From Flavisolibacter ginsengisoli DSM 18119 (GTDB lineage Bacteria > Bacteroidota > Bacteroidia > Chitinophagales > Chitinophagaceae): a DNA stretch of 64,000 bases. Numbering within the stretch: position 1 is the stretch's first letter; the number at the start of each line of letters is the position of its first letter. Where the stretch lies: the NCBI RefSeq assembly GCF_900129295.1, contig NZ_FQUU01000004.1, positions 1 through 64,000 of the forward strand, given 5' to 3'. Made by a program: the position numbers and the translations under genes. Shown here piece after piece: positions 38,198-44,959 of this stretch. The notes under the pieces are model-generated. The model was not told where the DNA came from. It worked only from the letters and a program-made list of their open reading frames with translations, and did not search any database.

Positions 38198-38453
38198 TAA
38201 TTCAAAAGCATAAATGCCATTAAATTGCCAGCATATTGTCCGATCACGTTGCTGTTTTTAGATATTGTATTAAGATTATGCGCTTTCAAAAATAATCTGA
38301 TAAAATAGAATTAATTAGTAGACTGCTATAAGAAGTAGTTCTGTAGTTACACAAGTCAAAAATATATAACCCTTTCCATCTTATTCTACAGCCATATACT
38401 TTGCAATAAGTAGTTGATTGGGAAATGGCTAGATATAATAAAATACTGCCTTG

Positions 38454-38527
38454 TCGGGATGACTGGATTCGAACCAGCGGCCCCGTCGTCCCGAACGACG
38501 TGCGCTACCGGGCTGCGCTACATCCCG
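38454..38527 (-). tRNA. tRNA-Pro (anticodon CGG)
   Basis: Read on the minus strand this folds as a normal 74-base tRNA. The acceptor CGGGATG pairs with CATCCCG, and the D-arm is GCGC...GCGC. The anticodon stem CGTCG/CGACG encloses TTCGGGA, giving anticodon CGG (decodes CCG). The T-arm is GCTGG-TTCGAAT-CCAGT, and the discriminator is A. CCA is not encoded. A partial copy of its 5' half, altered by a palindrome, lies 139 bases upstream in its own direction (38666-38710). Confidence 0.96.
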
Positions 38528-38665: not shown

Positions 38666-38710
38666 GTGCGCAACCGGTCCCGCCAACAGCGGGATACATC
38701 CCGAAGAACA
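38666..38710 (-). repeat. tRNA-Pro(CGG) 5'-half fragment with a palindrome in the D-arm
   Basis: On the plus strand the segment GTGCGC-AACCGG, then TCCCGC-CAACA-GCGGGA, then TACATCCCGAAGAACA matches tRNA-Pro(CGG) plus its 5' flank (38510-38534). The exception is that the seven bases GCTGCGC of the D-stem side are replaced by a 17-base palindrome. The anticodon and T-arms are absent. The match includes flanking bases GAAGAACA, so it arose by duplication of the neighbouring locus. Confidence 0.75.
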
Positions 38711-38890
38711 CAAAATTATTATTTAGCAGAAAATAGAAAACGATTTTTAGGGAATATAATGAATATTTTATTGTTAGCTGGTTTATCATAAGCAATGACT
38801 AATAGAAATTAGACATCAATATCTTTTGGGTTTCTTGCGCTCTCTATCAAATAATTGAGCTGCATAATTCTCTTCTAATACAAATAAAAT

Positions 38891-38915
38891 GAGGAAGACC
38901 ATAGCAGTCCTCCTC
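38891..38915 (-). terminator. Terminator for the fasciclin gene
   Basis: On the minus strand GAGGAGGAC and GTCTTCCTC form a stem with one G-T pair, followed by ATTTTATTTG. It lies 16 bases after the stop of the fasciclin-domain gene. Confidence 0.75.
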
Positions 38916-38930
38916 ATAAAATAATAAGGA

Positions 38931-39911
38931 TTACGGAATCAATACCCTGTCGATAGCATGAATTACGCCATTAGTAGCAATAACATCGGTTTGAATAATA
39001 TTAGAAGGCATAGAATTGGCACCATCTATTTGCGCGCCATTAGTCAGAGATATAGTAGTCATTCCACCAGACAGCATGGATAACATTTGTCCATTCATAA
39101 GGTCTGATGAAAATGTGCGTCCAGCAACAACATGGTAAGTGAGAATAGGGATCAGTGCAGAACCAGGGGCAGCTTCAATAGAAGAGATGGTTGGAAAACC
39201 AGCATCAATAAACGCCTGGTTGGTGGGCGCGAATACTGTCAGGGGACCAGTGCCTGACAGTGCATCAACAAGTCCTGCTTTTTGTACAGCAGCCACCAGG
39301 TAAGTAAAGTTGGGATTAGCCGCAGCCACTTCCACAATATTACCTGCAGGGGGTAACAGCACGCGGTCAATTGCATGTATAACCCCATTCTTTGCTGCAA
39401 TATCAGCCGCTACTACTGCAGTACCATTGATAAATACACTGGCATCGCGACGAATGATGTAGGCCTTCTGATTACTCAACATGGTAAGTTCTGTATAAGT
39501 TACAGGAACCTGTGCTGCCATTACCTTGCTTCCCAATACATGGTATAGAAGGATGGCTTTCAGCTTTTCTAAGGGAACACTATTGATGGCCTGGCGTGTA
39601 CCCAATCCCAGGGCTGTAAATGCCTCATCGGTAGGGGCAAATAAGGTGTAAGCAAACTTTGGATCGTTTAATTCATTTGCCAGTCCTGCCTTTGCAATGG
39701 CAAATGACAAAAGTTGAAAACTAGCTTGTCGCGGCGTTTTGTTCCTTGCCTGGGAATCCTTGGTTTTATTTAGATCAACAGATAAACTTTGCAATAAGGC
39801 GACGATTCCATCCTGGGATGCATTTACATCCTTTACATCGCTGATGTTTTTTTGACAGGAAATAAATAGCAGGGAGGGCAGCATTATAGCCGCCAATAGA
39901 TACTTCCACAT
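38931..39911 (-). CDS. Fasciclin (FAS1) domain lipoprotein, two domains
   Basis: A 326-aa exported lipoprotein. The signal LLAAIMLPSLLFISC places the acylated Cys at residue 19. Two FAS1 domains follow (~40-190 and ~195-326). Each carries the FAS1 hallmark (YTLFAPTDEAFTALG and LTVFAPTNQAFIDAG) and a terminal GVIHAIDRVLLP / GVIHAIDRVLIP. FAS1 proteins act in adhesion and surface interactions. A second FAS1 gene is cut by the window's right end, on the same strand but far away. Confidence 0.93.
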   Translation of the reverse strand: MWKYLLAAIMLPSLLFISCQKNISDVKDVNASQDGIVALLQSLSVDLNKTKDSQARNKTPRQASFQLLSFAIAKAGLANELNDPKFAYTLFAPTDEAFTALGLGTRQAINSVPLEKLKAILLYHVLGSKVMAAQVPVTYTELTMLSNQKAYIIRRDASVFINGTAVVAADIAAKNGVIHAIDRVLLPPAGNIVEVAAANPNFTYLVAAVQKAGLVDALSGTGPLTVFAPTNQAFIDAGFPTISSIEAAPGSALIPILTYHVVAGRTFSSDLMNGQMLSMLSGGMTTISLTNGAQIDGANSMPSNIIQTDVIATNGVIHAIDRVLIP

Positions 39912-40430
39912 TGGGGTTTGTTTTAATGGTTATAAAAAGTAGGTTTTCCAGGATGATCCAGCTATAGCAGAATGATAAAGTAAATAACAAGTTTGTTGTA
40001 AAAAGGTTGAGAAAAATGAAAGGTTGGGCCCTTTGATTAACACTTAGCTACTTAATGAAAAAAAAGATAAACAAAAAGAAAATATCATCTCTCTGCAGAT
40101 ACATCACACAACCTATTGGAGAGAGTATATCTAATACAATTTATTGGGTTAGGTGCTGCAAATATGTATGTAATAAAAAAGGGCAGTTTTTACGCTGCCC
40201 TCTCTACAAGAGTTAACTTCTTAAGACGAAATAATAAAAACTGATTTAAAAATAAACTTGACTAATAAAAGAAAAATCTAAATAAAAAAACAATAATAAC
40301 TAAAACGAGGCGAGAAGTTAACCGCTTGAATAATAAATATATGCTTTTTATATGACTTTAATGGACTGAACAATGTTTTATAATTATCCTATTAAAACAC
40401 AAACATTTTTACTGATTCATAACCCATATT
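39912..40430. other. AT-rich gene-free stretch with a minus-strand terminator
   Basis: This contains the fasciclin promoter region and, at 40168-40203, a hairpin GGGCAG/CTGCCC followed on the minus strand by TTTTTTATTA. The flank TAATAAAAAA plus hairpin also occurs in the units at 40660-41030, so this is probably the first of a series of related minus-strand terminator elements. No coding frame seen. Confidence 0.5.
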
Positions 40431-40708
40431 GTCGGGCTTTAACCAAATAAGCCCTCCGGATATAGTTTTGCTCAAAATAAAAAACCCGCAATGCTTCGGG
40501 CGTGTCTGGGCGAACCATGACATCCATAGTTGCCCGCGTGATATGATATTCATCCTTGTGGTTTAATGAATAGTTGAAAACAAATAAGGCAACCATTGTA
40601 CTGATTATGAAAGTATACTATCGGGCTTTACCCGACGAAGCCCGCCAGAATCGAGTTATGTACATAATAAAAAAGCCCGCCTTCGCAATAAATGCTTCGG
40701 CGGGCAAA
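40430..40708 (-). repeat. Decayed repeat units with terminator hairpins
   Basis: Two related blocks start TCGGGCTTTAACC (40432) and TCGGGCTTTACCC (40621). Hairpins CCCG-N8-CGGG (40484-40501) and GCCCGCCTTCG...CTTCGGCGGGC (40675-40705) are each followed on the minus strand by a T-run. They lead straight into the tRNA-Pro-derived unit at 40709 and look like older, more decayed members of the same series. Confidence 0.5.
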
Positions 40709-41040
40709 GTCGGGACGATCCCGCCGAATGGCGGGACGACCCCTAGCACCCCATGCTAGTGCCCTTAGCGGGACCGGTCTCGCCATTGGCGTGATACTCC
40801 CCGAAAATTTCCATTAAACCGTGATGTAATAAAAAAGGGCAACCATTTTATTGATTGCCCTTTAACTGGTCGGGACGATCCCGCAGGAATGGCGGGACGC
40901 CCCCCCTGGCACCCCATGCTCCCGTCCTTAGCGGGACCGGTCCCGCCATTGGCGTGATACTCCCCGAAAATTTCCATTAAACCGTGATGTAATAAAAAAA
41001 GGCAACCATTTTATTGATTGCCCTTTAATTGGTCGGGAGT
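40709..41040 (-). repeat. Tandem tRNA-Pro(GGG)-derived repeat, ~163-bp period, two copies
   Basis: Unit 1 is 40709-40868, unit 2 is 40869-41030, and a third begins at 41031. On the plus strand unit 1 has four parts. First is the tRNA 3' acceptor GTCGGGACGA. Next, TCCCGCC-GAAT-GGCGGGA replaces the T-arm. A 26-base exact match to the tRNA variable region and anticodon arm follows (40737-40762). Last is a D-side block with another palindrome (TCTCGCCATTGGCGTGA). Each unit continues into GGGCAA-N12-TTGCCC plus an A-run, a minus-strand terminator. Unit 2 keeps the layout but its anticodon stem has diverged; unit 2 encodes CCA after the acceptor. Confidence 0.8.
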
Positions 41041-41142
41041 GTTGGACAATGTTCGAACGAATTGCTTGAGGATTTGGAGATAATCAATGACTTTTTAGAA
41101 CAAAACAGGACTTTAATGGATTTTATTGAAGATCCATTTTAA
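41038..41142 (+). pseudogene. Possible C-terminal remnant of a lost gene
   Basis: Directly after the repeat block a 34-codon open frame encodes GQCSNELLEDLEIINDFLEQ, continuing NRTLMDFIEDPF and a stop. It has protein-like, amphipathic composition but no start and no upstream coding sequence: the repeat abuts it. I read it as the tail of a gene whose 5' part was replaced by the repeat array. Weak evidence. Confidence 0.3.
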
Positions 41143-41300
41143 CTGACAAGTATTGTGGAGAATACCACCGCTCAGGTCGTAGTGCCAAATTGCCGGCTAA
41201 CTGAGGCTAACTATTAATCCAACACTTCTTTAATCAATAACTTTACGTTTTCAATCTGAAACAGCCGCTTTTTCGTAAACTAGTTAACATCAATTGCAGG

Positions 41301-43574
41301 ATGAGAAATTTTCTATCAATGTCAAGGGTTATACTGCTTTGCGTCTTTCTTGGAAGTAGTTTACTTGCCGTTTCACAAACCAACATCAAAGGCATTTACA
41401 TCATCAATGCGGAGACCAGAGTGCCGGTACAGGAAGCATTCTTACAAAATGAAGATGCCAGTTTTAATATAGAAGCAGACGAAAACGGTTTTGCTTCTTT
41501 TAAAACCCTGCCGTCAACAGCTTCTACATTGACCATCAGCCGGATTGGGTTTGAAACAAAAAAAGTTCATTTAGATACGCTTAGTATTACAAACAATACG
41601 GCCATTATTTATCTCAAGGCAAAAGTTTCCAACCTTCAGGAAGTGCAGGTAAAAGCAACGGCCAGAAGCGGCGTTTTTAAAACCATAAGTGACCTTGATA
41701 TTCACCTTCGCCCGATCAACAATTCACAGGAAGTACTCCGGATGGTTCCAGGGCTCTTTATTGGGCAACACGCCGGAGGCGGTAAAGCCGAACAGATATT
41801 TCTACGAGGCTTTGACTTAGACCACGGGACAGACATCAACCTATCCGTTGATGGAATGCCGGTAAATATGGTAAGCCACGCACATGGACAAGGCTATGCC
41901 GATTTGCATTGGGTGATCCCTGAACTAATAGATAAGGTGAACTTCAACAAAGGACCCTATTTTGCAGACAAAGGCAATTTTACCACAGCCGGCTTTGTGG
42001 AGTTCAAGACAAAAGATTATTTAGAAAATAACTTTGTAAAAGTAGAAGGCGGGCAATTCAACACCTTCAGAGGCATTGCAGGCATCAACCTGCTAAAACC
42101 AAAGGGTGACAGAAGAAGCCAAAGTTTATACTTCGCCGGTGAAGCATCTTACACAAAAGGGTATTTCGACAGCCCACAGGATTTCGGTCGCTATAACGGC
42201 ATTCTAAAGTATCACGGCAGTATCAGCAGCAGCAGCACATTGACCGCGACAGGCACCGCATTTACCAGCAAATGGAACGCATCGGGGCAAATACCCAACA
42301 GAGCTTTAGAAAGCGGCATGGTTGGTTTTTATGGCGCCATTGACAATACAGAAGGGGGCAAAACATCACGGTACAATACCAATTTAGAACTTCTGACAAG
42401 TTTGAATAACGGCGGTGCTATTCGCAATCAGGTATTTTATAGCCGCTACAAGTTTGAACTCTATTCCAACTTTACGTTTTACAAGGAAGACCCGATAAAC
42501 GGCGACCAGATACGGCAAAAAGAAGACCGGAATATTTACGGCTACAATGGTTCCTACCACAAAAACTTTTTCATTGGCAACATGCCTTCTGAAACAAATG
42601 TAGGCATCCAAGTGAGGTATGATGATATTAATAACATTGAACTGACAAGAACAAAAAACAGAACCATCAACACAGCCGGCATCATGCTTGGGGACATTAA
42701 CGAAATGAATGCCGGTGCTTACTGGTCGCAACGTCTTTCCCTGTCAAAACAACTTGATATGACAGGCGCCATTCGATTCGACTACTTTACCAATCGCTAC
42801 AACGACAAACTGTCTTCACAAGTAAGTTCCACTAATGCAACCATCATCAGCCCCAAACTTAATTTCAACTACCGGTTAAATGACAAGGTGCAACTGTATC
42901 TATACAACGGCAGAGGCTTTCACAGCAACGATACACGGGTTGCCGTGCAGGAGGGAGGGAAGAAAGTAGTACCAGCGGCTTATGGCTCCGATTTGGGTGG
43001 CATCTTCAAAGTGGGCAGGAAATTACTTTTCCAATCGGCTCTTTGGTACTTGTGGCTCGACCAGGAATTTGTGTATGTTGGTGATGAAGGAGTAGTGGAA
43101 GCGGGTGGAAAAACAAGGCGCTATGGGTTTGATTTTTCGGTACGATATGAAGTGGCAAAAAACTTGTTTGCTGACGCTGATGTTAGTATGGCTAATCCAA
43201 GAGCATTGGGTGTCGAAAAAGCAGAAAGCTATTTACCCTTGGCCCCACGCTTCTCCAGTGTCGGAGGGCTTACATACAGAAAAGAACAGGGCTGGAACGG
43301 TAGCCTGCGTTACCGCTACATGGCAGACAGACCGGCAAACGAAGACAAATCCATCATAGCAAAAGGCTACTTTGTTACCGACGCGGCGATTAATTACACA
43401 AAAAAAAGATGGGAGTCTGGACTTGCCATTCAAAACTTGTTCAATGTAAAGTGGAAAGAAACCCAATTCGATACAGAAAGCAGGTTGCAAAATGAACCGG
43501 CACCGGTTTCAGAAATTCATTTCACACCCGGAACACCATTCTTTGCAAGAGCAAGTTTTACTGTATTCTTTTAA
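41301..43574 (+). CDS. TonB-dependent receptor
   Basis: A 757-aa outer-membrane receptor. It has a signal peptide (VILLCVFLGSSLLAVSQ), a CarboxypepD_reg-like domain (~27-110), and a plug with LRMVPGLFIGQHAGGGKAEQ, FLRGFDLDHGTDINLSVDGM and VSHAHGQGYADLHWVIPELI. The barrel ends in ARASFTVFF. The histidine-containing plug motif VSHAHGQGYADLH is typical of a Bacteroidota receptor subgroup often linked to metal or small-ligand uptake; the substrate is unknown. It stands alone, flanked by tRNA-derived repeats at 40.7-41.0 kb and 43.8 kb, so it may be an imported cassette. Confidence 0.92.
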   Translation: MRNFLSMSRVILLCVFLGSSLLAVSQTNIKGIYIINAETRVPVQEAFLQNEDASFNIEADENGFASFKTLPSTASTLTISRIGFETKKVHLDTLSITNNTAIIYLKAKVSNLQEVQVKATARSGVFKTISDLDIHLRPINNSQEVLRMVPGLFIGQHAGGGKAEQIFLRGFDLDHGTDINLSVDGMPVNMVSHAHGQGYADLHWVIPELIDKVNFNKGPYFADKGNFTTAGFVEFKTKDYLENNFVKVEGGQFNTFRGIAGINLLKPKGDRRSQSLYFAGEASYTKGYFDSPQDFGRYNGILKYHGSISSSSTLTATGTAFTSKWNASGQIPNRALESGMVGFYGAIDNTEGGKTSRYNTNLELLTSLNNGGAIRNQVFYSRYKFELYSNFTFYKEDPINGDQIRQKEDRNIYGYNGSYHKNFFIGNMPSETNVGIQVRYDDINNIELTRTKNRTINTAGIMLGDINEMNAGAYWSQRLSLSKQLDMTGAIRFDYFTNRYNDKLSSQVSSTNATIISPKLNFNYRLNDKVQLYLYNGRGFHSNDTRVAVQEGGKKVVPAAYGSDLGGIFKVGRKLLFQSALWYLWLDQEFVYVGDEGVVEAGGKTRRYGFDFSVRYEVAKNLFADADVSMANPRALGVEKAESYLPLAPRFSSVGGLTYRKEQGWNGSLRYRYMADRPANEDKSIIAKGYFVTDAAINYTKKRWESGLAIQNLFNVKWKETQFDTESRLQNEPAPVSEIHFTPGTPFFARASFTVFF

Positions 43575-43712
43575 GACATAGTAACTTCTTTAACAGAACA
43601 AGCTTCACCGGCAGCTTTTTACAACACAAGTATTGCCAGTAAAGAACTCTTCAACAGCATCAAATGTCCTACTTGCAACGGTAGTTTCAGCTCATATAGC
43701 GAGGGAACTTGA
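43575..43712 (+). pseudogene. Possible remnant with a CPTC motif after the TonB receptor
   Basis: In frame with the receptor's stop codon, 45 sense codons continue to a TGA at 43710-43712. The end, ELFNSIKCPTCNGSFSSYSE, has a zinc-finger-like CPTC. There is no start codon or recognisable family. It may be the debris of a following gene or chance. The inverted repeat AAGTCCTTTA/TAAAGGACTT (43721-43770) follows. Confidence 0.25.
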
Positions 43713-43782
43713 GAAAATTAAAGTCCTTTACTGTATCAAAACCTGACATTTTGAAACATTAAAGGACTTAATAAGAGATTCG

Positions 43783-43857
43783 TCGGGACGACAAGATTCG
43801 AACTTGCGACCCCTAGCACCCCATGCTAGTGCCCCGCCTCTGGCGGGGCTACGTCCC
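43783..43857 (-). repeat. tRNA-Pro(GGG)-like copy with its D-arm replaced by a hairpin
   Basis: On the minus strand this is tRNA-Pro(GGG) except in the D-arm. GGGACG-TA is followed by GCCCCGCC-AGA-GGCGGGGC, a perfect 8-bp hairpin in place of the 17-base D-arm, then the exact anticodon arm (anticodon GGG), variable region, T-arm and 3' acceptor. The first acceptor pair is lost. Bases 43782-43832 match 44134-44184 of the real tRNA over 51 bases without mismatch. The missing D-loop GG makes a functional tRNA unlikely. The GIY-YIG gene's last codons and stop lie in it. Confidence 0.85.
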
Positions 43858-44095
43858 TCAGTAGTCTTTTAAATGCCTCGCCACCTTTATAGTTCTTTAT
43901 TTGAATTTCTCTCTTCAATGCTGCAGCTTTATCTGGAAATTCCTCCTGATAGATAAGTATAAAAGGTATTCTTGATTTTGTAGAGCGTTGTAAGCCAGCA
44001 TTGTGAAAATTTACTCTTGCCACTACATCGGCAGTGCTGCCTATATAATATCTTCCATCTTTTGAACTTCTTATAATGTATACAAAATAGCTCAT
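43826..44095 (-). CDS. Small GIY-YIG nuclease-domain protein
   Basis: An 89-aa single-domain GIY-YIG protein (UvrC-N / YhbQ-like). The N-terminus FVYIIRSSKDGRYYIGSTAD carries the paired tyrosines and G of the motif, followed by VARVNFHN (catalytic Arg region), FILIYQEEFPDKAAALKREIQIKNYKG (Glu) and a short tail. The last ~12 residues (LLRDVAPPEAGH) and the stop are encoded by the altered tRNA-Pro copy, so the tail is repeat-derived. Its ATG lies 7 bases after the hairpin that follows tRNA-Pro(GGG) on the same strand. It may be a mobile or homing-type nuclease, or a structure-specific nuclease; neither is shown. Confidence 0.88.
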   Translation of the reverse strand: MSYFVYIIRSSKDGRYYIGSTADVVARVNFHNAGLQRSTKSRIPFILIYQEEFPDKAAALKREIQIKNYKGGEAFKRLLRDVAPPEAGH

Positions 44096-44102
44096 AATAT
44101 AA

Positions 44103-44128
44103 AGCCGTCTTCATTTTAGAAGACGGCT
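44103..44128 (-). terminator. Hairpin after tRNA-Pro(GGG), directly before the GIY-YIG start
   Basis: AGCCGTCTTC (44103-44112) and GAAGACGGCT (44119-44128) pair perfectly over 10 bp. On the minus strand it lies 3 bases after the encoded CCA and is followed by TTATATT and the GIY-YIG ATG (44093-44095). It may end the tRNA transcript or gate read-through into the nuclease gene. Confidence 0.75.
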
Positions 44129-44131
44129 CAA

Positions 44132-44208
44132 TGGTCGGGACGACAAGATTCGAACTTGCGACCCCTAGCACCCCATGCTAGTGCGCTACCGGGCTGCGCT
44201 ACGTCCCG
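44132..44208 (-). tRNA. tRNA-Pro (anticodon GGG)
   Basis: On the minus strand: acceptor CGGGACG/CGTCCCG, D-arm GCGC...GCGC, anticodon stem CTAGC/GCTAG around ATGGGGT (anticodon GGG, decoding CCC/CCU). The T-arm is CAAG-TTCGAAT-CTTG, the discriminator is A, and CCA is encoded (44132-44134). All expected invariant parts are present. It is the likely parent of the altered copies at 40709, 40869, 43783 and 44222. The neighbouring trmH product would methylate G18 in this class of tRNA (family knowledge). Confidence 0.96.
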
Positions 44209-44221
44209 AAATTTTAATTAT

Positions 44222-44256
44222 TACCGGTCCCGCCAAAGGCGGGATACGTCCCGAAA
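44222..44256 (-). repeat. tRNA-Pro(GGG) 5'-end fragment with palindrome
   Basis: On the plus strand TACCGG, then TCCCGCC-AAA-GGCGGGA, then TACGTCCCGAAA. The outer parts match the D-loop and 5' acceptor of tRNA-Pro(GGG); GCTGCGC between them is replaced by the palindrome. The substitution point is the same as in the 38666 fragment and in the D-side of the 40709 unit. Confidence 0.75.
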
Positions 44257-44362: not shown

Positions 44363-44959
44363 ATGACCGAAGAGCGCCGCCAAAAATTTGAAAAGGTGTT
44401 GGCCTGCAGGCAAAATGACCTGACCGTGGTCCTTGAAAATGTAATTGACCCGCATAATATTTCTGCTGTCATGCGGAGTTGCGATGCTGTGGGCATCCAG
44501 GAAATATTTGTCTTGAACACCAGGATACCCAGGCATAAAAAATGGGGCTTTCGCAGCAGCAGGAGTGCCGCCAAATGGGTTACCGTTCATCAGTATGAAG
44601 ATGTTGTTGCCTGTTTTACCGCCATCAGGAATAGCTATTCATCCATTTTCACCACCAGCTTAACTGCTAATTCGATAAGTTTATATAGCATGGAACTGAC
44701 CAGGAGCATGGCGCTGGTTTTTGGTAATGAACAATATGGTGTCAGTGATGAGATCAATGCCCTGGCGGATGGAAGTTTTGTGATACCACAGGTAGGCATG
44801 ATTCAGTCATTGAACATCAGTGTAGCCTGTGCGGTAACCTTGTATGAAGCCTATAGACAAAAACAAGCTGCAGGGCATTATGATCAGCAAAAGCTTACCA
44901 ATGAACATGTCAATACATTATTCAACCAATGGGCATTGAATCGTGAAGAGGATCTCTAA
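44363..44959 (+). CDS. trmH: tRNA (guanosine-18-2'-O)-methyltransferase, SpoU family
   Basis: A 198-aa SPOUT methyltransferase using S-adenosylmethionine. Motif 1 is NISAVMRSCDAVGI (~residue 35, with the catalytic Arg), motif 2 LVFGNEQYGVSDE (~120) and motif 3 IPQVGMIQSLNISVACAVTLYE (~145). The N-terminal RRQKFEKVLACRQNDLTVVLENV and the length match TrmH, which methylates G18 in the tRNA D-loop. It is divergent from tRNA-Pro(GGG). A truncated thioredoxin-like gene overlaps its end by 17 bases. A TAGTTTGC near 44350 resembles a -7 box with short spacing. Confidence 0.9.
   Translation: MTEERRQKFEKVLACRQNDLTVVLENVIDPHNISAVMRSCDAVGIQEIFVLNTRIPRHKKWGFRSSRSAAKWVTVHQYEDVVACFTAIRNSYSSIFTTSLTANSISLYSMELTRSMALVFGNEQYGVSDEINALADGSFVIPQVGMIQSLNISVACAVTLYEAYRQKQAAGHYDQQKLTNEHVNTLFNQWALNREEDL

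Follow-up and report, generated by a model that had tools for sequence, protein, structure and literature searches.

The window analysed here, positions 1 to 64,000 of contig NZ_FQUU01000004.1 from Flavisolibacter ginsengisoli DSM 18119 (64,000 nucleotides), contains five altered copies of tRNA-Pro genes in which arms are replaced by GC-rich hairpins, and a small gene for a predicted GIY-YIG endonuclease that lies between an intact tRNA-Pro gene and one of these copies. Together they probably represent a selfish GIY-YIG element of the homing type that resides at tRNA genes, in one complete copy and several decayed ones. The nuclease gene, which is embedded in the finding and is its central component, was overlooked in an earlier description made from the letters of the window (the sequence-only reading), although that description located all five altered copies correctly. 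The features concerned are the following.

38453..38527, minus strand: intact tRNA-Pro(CGG) gene, source of the copy at 38666 (ARAGORN, Rfam)
38666..38713, minus strand: 5' fragment of tRNA-Pro(CGG) with a palindrome and a copied 5' flank
40709..40806, minus strand: tandem unit 1, an altered tRNA-Pro(GGG) copy with palindromes in place of the T arm and the D side
40869..40969, minus strand: tandem unit 2, the same doubly altered tRNA-Pro(GGG) copy
43783..43858, minus strand: altered tRNA-Pro(GGG) copy with an 8-bp GC hairpin in place of its D arm (ARAGORN, Rfam)
43831-43849, minus strand: the hairpin, GCCCCGCCAGAGGCGGGGC, that replaces the D arm in the 43783 copy
43826..44095, minus strand: GIY-YIG endonuclease gene, 89 aa (Pfam PF01541, E=3.1e-16)
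44102..44129, minus strand: terminator-like hairpin between the intact tRNA and the GIY-YIG start codon
44132..44208, minus strand: intact tRNA-Pro(GGG) gene beside the element and its presumed target (ARAGORN; Rfam 60.5 bits)
44222..44256, minus strand: 5' fragment of tRNA-Pro(GGG) with a palindrome, immediately upstream of the intact gene; a remnant without a nuclease gene

Read along the minus strand, the locus runs from the 44222 fragment through the intact tRNA-Pro(GGG) gene, the terminator-like hairpin and the GIY-YIG gene to the altered copy at 43783, which the final codons of the nuclease gene overlap. The succession of tRNA, hairpin and ATG is the usual layout wherever the nuclease is downstream. 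In the 43783 copy the whole D arm, GCGCAGCCCGGTAGCGC, gives way to GCCCCGCCAGAGGCGGGGC, as had been described, and the following 51 nt match the intact gene without a difference. The copy folds as a cloverleaf with an 8-bp D arm (-39.9 kcal/mol, z -4.1), and both ARAGORN and Rfam annotate it as a tRNA-Pro(GGG) gene; hairpin copies called in this way may inflate the tRNA counts of the genomes that carry them. The same replacement of the D arm is found at six other Pro loci (L073, L074, L077, L051, L112, L160), and left-hand remnants resembling 44222 occur in L073, L078, L004 and L093.

The remaining copies also bear out the sequence-only reading in its central point, namely that an arm is replaced by a palindrome recurrently and at a specific position in copies that match the local tRNA gene. 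A palindrome stands between ACCGG and TAC in 38666, in 44222 and in the D sides of 40709 and 40869, where it is imperfect, and the latter two have a TCCCGC..GGCGGGA palindrome where the T arm, CAAGATTCGAACTTG, would stand. The 38666 copy does hold the 5' flank of tRNA-Pro(CGG) (GAAGAACA). Its tRNA pieces are not all exact, as had been claimed for every copy (GCGCAACCGG instead of GCGCTACCGG). Four sequences of the form TCCCGC-N3-8-GCGGGA are present in the window, every one of them within an altered copy, compared with none in 100 shuffles. The units at 40709 and 40869 form a 163-bp tandem repeat (94% identity over 136 nt) that lies 3 kb off, away from any tRNA gene. Upstream of this array, at 40402-40680, are two more diverged repeats with GC-rich hairpins at a spacing of about 190 bp, possibly older units of the same array.

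The 89-aa protein has three of the features by which free-standing homing endonucleases are recognised: the catalytic residues of the GIY-YIG domain, a gene located at the presumed target, and presence/absence polymorphism. Residues Y6, Y17, G19, R27, H31, E63 and K67 are conserved in at least 95% of 58 tRNA-linked relatives, and an AlphaFold2 model (pLDDT 79) has three strands and three helices. Where it could be computed, dN/dS between relatives was approximately 0.08 to 0.27 (for example, dN 0.26 with dS 1.84, and dN 0.04 with dS 0.51), and the nuclease is thus under purifying selection.

We examined the association with tRNA genes in three collections. The first came from a search for the GIY-YIG domain, blind to tRNA genes, in 40 related genomes, which gave 78 distinct small open reading frames (ORFs). 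Of these ORFs, 38 have a tRNA gene no more than 300 bp away, in every case on their own strand and never on the opposite one; DNA this close to a tRNA makes up about 0.6% of the genome. The other 40 ORFs have no tRNA nearby. Most of them fall elsewhere in the nuclease tree; the remainder are at contig ends, within tandem arrays or beside hairpin-bearing tRNA copies. As validation we used 29 loci collected by protein similarity alone from 150 genomes of the host's order, a few of them from genomes of the first set: 20 were near a tRNA on its strand, none on the opposite strand, and 7 more had hairpin-bearing tRNA copies. In both sets combined, none of the 58 tRNA-linked nucleases is on the opposite strand. 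A nuclease like that of the window was present in 83 of the 150 genomes sampled. In a third collection the layout recurs at tRNA genes of many kinds, including those for Pro, Tyr, Thr, Ser, Glu, Gly and Asp. The records concerned bear the labels of Patescibacteria, Omnitrophota, Thermotogota, Planctomycetota, Desulfobacterota and other groups, and homologues next to tRNA genes are found under Bacteroidota as well; many of the records are metagenome-assembled, so that an isolated exotic assignment deserves no trust. We rejected phage or plasmid cargo as an account of the gene: neither plasmids nor IMG/VR, in a single-protein scan, contained a window-like GIY-YIG, and the 13 phage records with a match to the nuclease were all below 60% identity. 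Two departures from the usual setting were seen. A nuclease of the Met clade (L062, G005:C16:72220) has a hairpin-bearing tRNA-Met copy and no intact tRNA nearby, and is an ectopic or relic insertion; two Streptococcus loci (L094, L096) hold GIY-YIG relatives without nearby tRNA genes, on a long branch of their own.

The association also holds within the window genome, where relatives of the nuclease adjoin tRNA-Met, tRNA-Val and tRNA-Ser genes as well. For each of the 43 tRNA calls of this genome we looked within 1.5 kb for partial copies on the same strand, with a minimum length of 14 nt. Each of the four tRNA loci linked to a GIY-YIG gene (Pro, Met, Val, Ser) has such a copy, and none of 37 other tRNA genes does (Fisher p ~1e-5); no partial copies on the opposite strand were detected at the same length and distance. 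At the Met and Val loci the copies have an arm or half an arm replaced by a hairpin (for example, TCCGCC-TGA-GGCGGA behind a CAT anticodon, and TTCCGC..GCGGAA in place of an anticodon arm). The Ser copy is short and lacks a hairpin.

The order of the parts is nearly constant. We compared 72 pairs of a tRNA and a nuclease that have a hairpin copy. With the nuclease downstream of the intact gene (39 pairs) the copy is on the right in 36, and with the nuclease upstream (29 pairs) it is on the left in 28. In other words, the nuclease sits between the working gene and the altered copy (64 of 68 pairs), counts that are not fully independent because the loci partly overlap and a few altered copies are themselves called as tRNAs. 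The altered copy lacks one arm, whereas the adjoining intact tRNA retains it. The hairpin is bordered on one side by a short stretch of tRNA homology and on the other by the remainder of the tRNA, which often still has its native flank.

Which arm is replaced goes with the nuclease clade. On a tree of the nuclease domain (74 columns, with many deep forks unresolved) tRNA identity changes 20 times, compared with a mean of 39 and a minimum of 33 in 1000 shuffles, and clustering is seen for the Pro, Met, Val and Leu types. Within one nuclease clade the same arm is replaced across genera. Specifically, the main Pro clade replaces the D arm at every isoacceptor (GGG, TGG, CGG), and other clades at tRNA-Pro (L052/L053, L043) replace the anticodon arm. 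The position of the hairpin is thus tied to the nuclease and not to the tRNA.

To characterise the hairpins, we gathered 60 distinct replaced segments without reference to palindromes, and 37 of them contain a perfect stem of at least 6 bp, compared with 1.4% of shuffles. When 16 distinct replacements of the anticodon arm were aligned, pairing held in 93% of the cells, with two-sided changes in 20 cells against 6.9 in shuffles (none of 500 shuffles reached 20), and ten Pro D-arm replacements are 100% paired, although both alignments were picked by pattern and therefore lean towards pairing. Of the 99 hairpins within copies, 37 have the ends TCCCG..CGGGA or a variant of them; among 404 other hairpins of these loci the number is 30. 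What is conserved is thus the pairing and the short ends; the interior is variable and does not amount to a single sequence. With Rfam, the matches at element loci were to tRNA at 13 loci (E<=0.5), and otherwise to neighbouring RNase P RNA or below threshold, so that we discarded a known structured RNA family other than tRNA as an identity for the copies.

These data bear on an ordinary alternative, in which tRNA genes were duplicated locally and decayed, hairpins arose by chance or slippage, and the GIY-YIG genes are coincidental. Some copies are indeed degenerate, such as 40869 and the Ser copy in L223. The frequency of stems in the replaced segments, the constancy of the arm within a nuclease clade across genera and the complete absence of opposite-strand nucleases all oppose such an origin, which the comparative data refute and to which we attach practically no credence.

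Comparison of the tRNA-Pro(GGG) locus across genomes of the genus, in which a gene adjoining it served as the anchor, revealed that the locus is polymorphic.

44363..44959, plus strand: RNA methyltransferase-like gene, which we take to be of the TrmH/SpoU type; synteny anchor for the tRNA-Pro(GGG) locus, outside the element

The orthologous locus is empty in six genomes, holds a nuclease in two and holds nuclease-free tandem arrays of hairpin copies in two (G016, G010). The nuclease-bearing pair consists of the window genome and G014, whose nuclease belongs to another clade. In G014 the terminator after the altered copy resembles that of the empty G009, and the terminator after the intact gene resembles those of the empty G006 and G015; a marker gene singled out no donor. 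Nuclease-free arrays and solo copies are common, and elsewhere arrays that include the nuclease have constant periods of 351, 430 and 420 bp. For downstream nucleases, the similarity between the 3' flanks of the copy and of the intact gene exceeds that in every one of 200 shuffles at about 12 loci, and in the same test the 5' flanks never show such a similarity. Since copies include non-tRNA flanks and terminators, they are duplications at the DNA level. The nuclease-free arrays of G016 at tRNA-Pro(GGG) (L171) use the TGGCGC..GCGCCA palindrome of its own nuclease locus (L052/L120), hinting at mobilisation in trans.

The sharing of a palindrome in G016 is also among the points that favour a different mechanism, transposition of single-stranded DNA (ssDNA) or hairpins in the manner of IS200/IS605 or repetitive extragenic palindromes (REP), with the palindromes as the ends of the unit, the GIY-YIG protein as a hairpin nuclease and tRNA arms as folded targets. 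The near-constant ends and variable interior of the hairpins would fit, as would the hairpin copies that flank the intact tRNA on both sides in at least 10 loci. Against it, nearly all copies are at the cognate tRNA gene and not at dispersed hairpins, and we know of no GIY-YIG transposase of such a kind. We regard this mechanism as unlikely.

Association, gene order, specificity, constraint and locus polymorphism are thus observed; under the homing reading, nuclease cutting, homing and immunity of the copy are inferred. The nuclease would cut its cognate tRNA gene in the arm that is missing from the copy, and recombinational repair from an occupied locus would bring in the nuclease gene together with the altered copy, keeping one complete tRNA gene. 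The hairpin would mark the junction and render the copy uncleavable. Recombination between tRNA copies could then give rise to arrays and to solo remnants such as 38666, 40709, 40869 and 44222, and the nuclease may be expressed by read-through from the tRNA promoter.

Several points weigh against this scheme. The intact tRNA next to the predicted nuclease would be an expected target too, yet it is spared, and a hairpin with conserved ends exceeds what immunity alone requires. Duplication of the 3' flank went undetected at the Pro locus of the window and at some other loci of the Pro clade. We found no before/after pair of near-identical strains, and we therefore infer the boundaries of the insertion. 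The sparing of the intact gene and the covarying hairpin with its near-constant ends leave room for a role of the hairpin, either in ssDNA recognition or as an RNA decoy.

A decoy is what would be expected of a module resembling a toxin-antitoxin system, in which the GIY-YIG protein is directed against one specific tRNA, or against the gene for it, and the transcript of the hairpin copy, lacking the cleavable arm, acts as an RNA decoy or inhibitor. The covarying hairpin in place of an arm, the clean cloverleaf fold of the window copy, and the same-strand layout of tRNA, terminator and ORF with tandem tRNA-like arrays (L171, L175) would suit such a module, and type III toxin-antitoxin loci have a similar layout. 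Many copies, however, lack the 5' half or the acceptor strand and cannot fold as a tRNA (L105, L140, L060), and nuclease-free arrays and solo copies occur frequently. No toxin model matched in PADLOC, whose sole match was a weak 'homing endonuclease', so that we also set aside a defence gene; Pfam found in the nuclease GIY-YIG only and no known type III toxin family, and GIY-YIG enzymes are known to be DNA nucleases. We consider a module of this kind quite improbable.

If homing is the correct explanation, it describes a common selfish element that inhabits essential and highly conserved genes and persists by leaving the gene whole, and it would account for puzzling partial or 'extra' tRNA genes. 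The loci also provide series of small nucleases, every one of which goes with a particular tRNA gene and a particular arm, and since a natural altered target lies beside each of them the homing prediction is directly testable. For the broader claim, that these loci are a widespread, undescribed class of bacterial mobile elements for tRNA genes, in which a very small GIY-YIG nuclease travels with a tRNA copy and the hairpin in place of its arm, with conserved ends, is active in mobility or immunity and not a scar, we judge the case evenly balanced. The sequence-only reading knew of no described family, and we likewise found no description of chromosomal elements with hairpin-substituted tRNA copies in the open-access literature, which is weak evidence of absence.

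By analogy, the closest known system is SegB of phages T4 and T6. SegB is a free-standing GIY-YIG homing endonuclease encoded at phage tRNA genes that cuts tRNA-containing DNA (PMC13096335; PMC2988022), and its cutting, with recombination, amplifies a 718-bp unit of tRNA-Tyr and segB in tandem (PMC13096335). The likeness lies in a nuclease gene beside tRNA genes and in tandem arrays. SegB is a phage protein. Most of the elements described here, by contrast, were found on bacterial contigs, and each has with it an altered copy of a single tRNA; the passages on SegB mention no hairpin-substituted tRNA copies. The small GIY-YIG proteins of the UPF0213/YhbQ type are of similar size, share the Pfam domain and include the closest solved structures (1zg2, 1ywl), but the GIY-YIG genes without tRNA linkage among the relatives are mostly in a separate part of the tree. 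Integrative elements that attach at tRNA genes leave a complete tRNA gene with a partial copy displaced beyond the insert, and the loci described here do the same; here, however, the insert measures a few hundred bases and holds a single small ORF, and a hairpin replaces the exact attachment repeat. Rickettsia palindromic elements and the double-hairpin elements of fungal mitochondria place short GC-rich hairpins inside structural RNA or coding genes, whereas here the arm is replaced in an extra copy, the working tRNA is intact and a nuclease gene is linked. In REP/RAYT systems, intergenic GC-rich palindromes are linked to a nuclease-like gene, a Y1 (HUH) transposase; the gene here is of the GIY-YIG type, and the palindrome is defined by its place in a tRNA copy and not as a dispersed sequence.

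The last comparison touches the origin that the sequence-only reading had offered, a palindrome inserting as a mobile unit or a tRNA-derived repeat resembling REP or short interspersed elements (SINEs), with copies made from RNA, or by a mobile palindrome with a preference for tRNA copies. The occurrence of several tRNA-derived copies with palindromes is what suggested it. The palindromes are not one family, having in common only their short ends and pairing, and the copies hold a 5' flank (38666) or duplicated terminators (several loci); these duplicated flanks rule out a SINE-like origin, and the nuclease gene accounts better for the linkage. A repeat of either kind is accordingly very improbable. 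A genome-wide pattern search for the TCCCGC..GCGGGA palindrome found 45 sites, among which clear tRNA-derived flanks were present only in the window and at the Val locus. Most sites were terminator-like, beside T-runs, or in an unrelated 'TTTGTCA[..]TCTTTGG' intergenic repeat, and we therefore dismissed the palindrome as a general mobile repeat. That dispersed repeat, TTTGTCA[TCCCGCC..GGCGGGA]TCTTTGGACTGCA, is unrelated to tRNA and was seen at L025:3288 and 3993, L026:1621, L031:1473 and L041:2175; between its two copies in L025 lies a GIY-YIG gene from the part of the tree without tRNA linkage.

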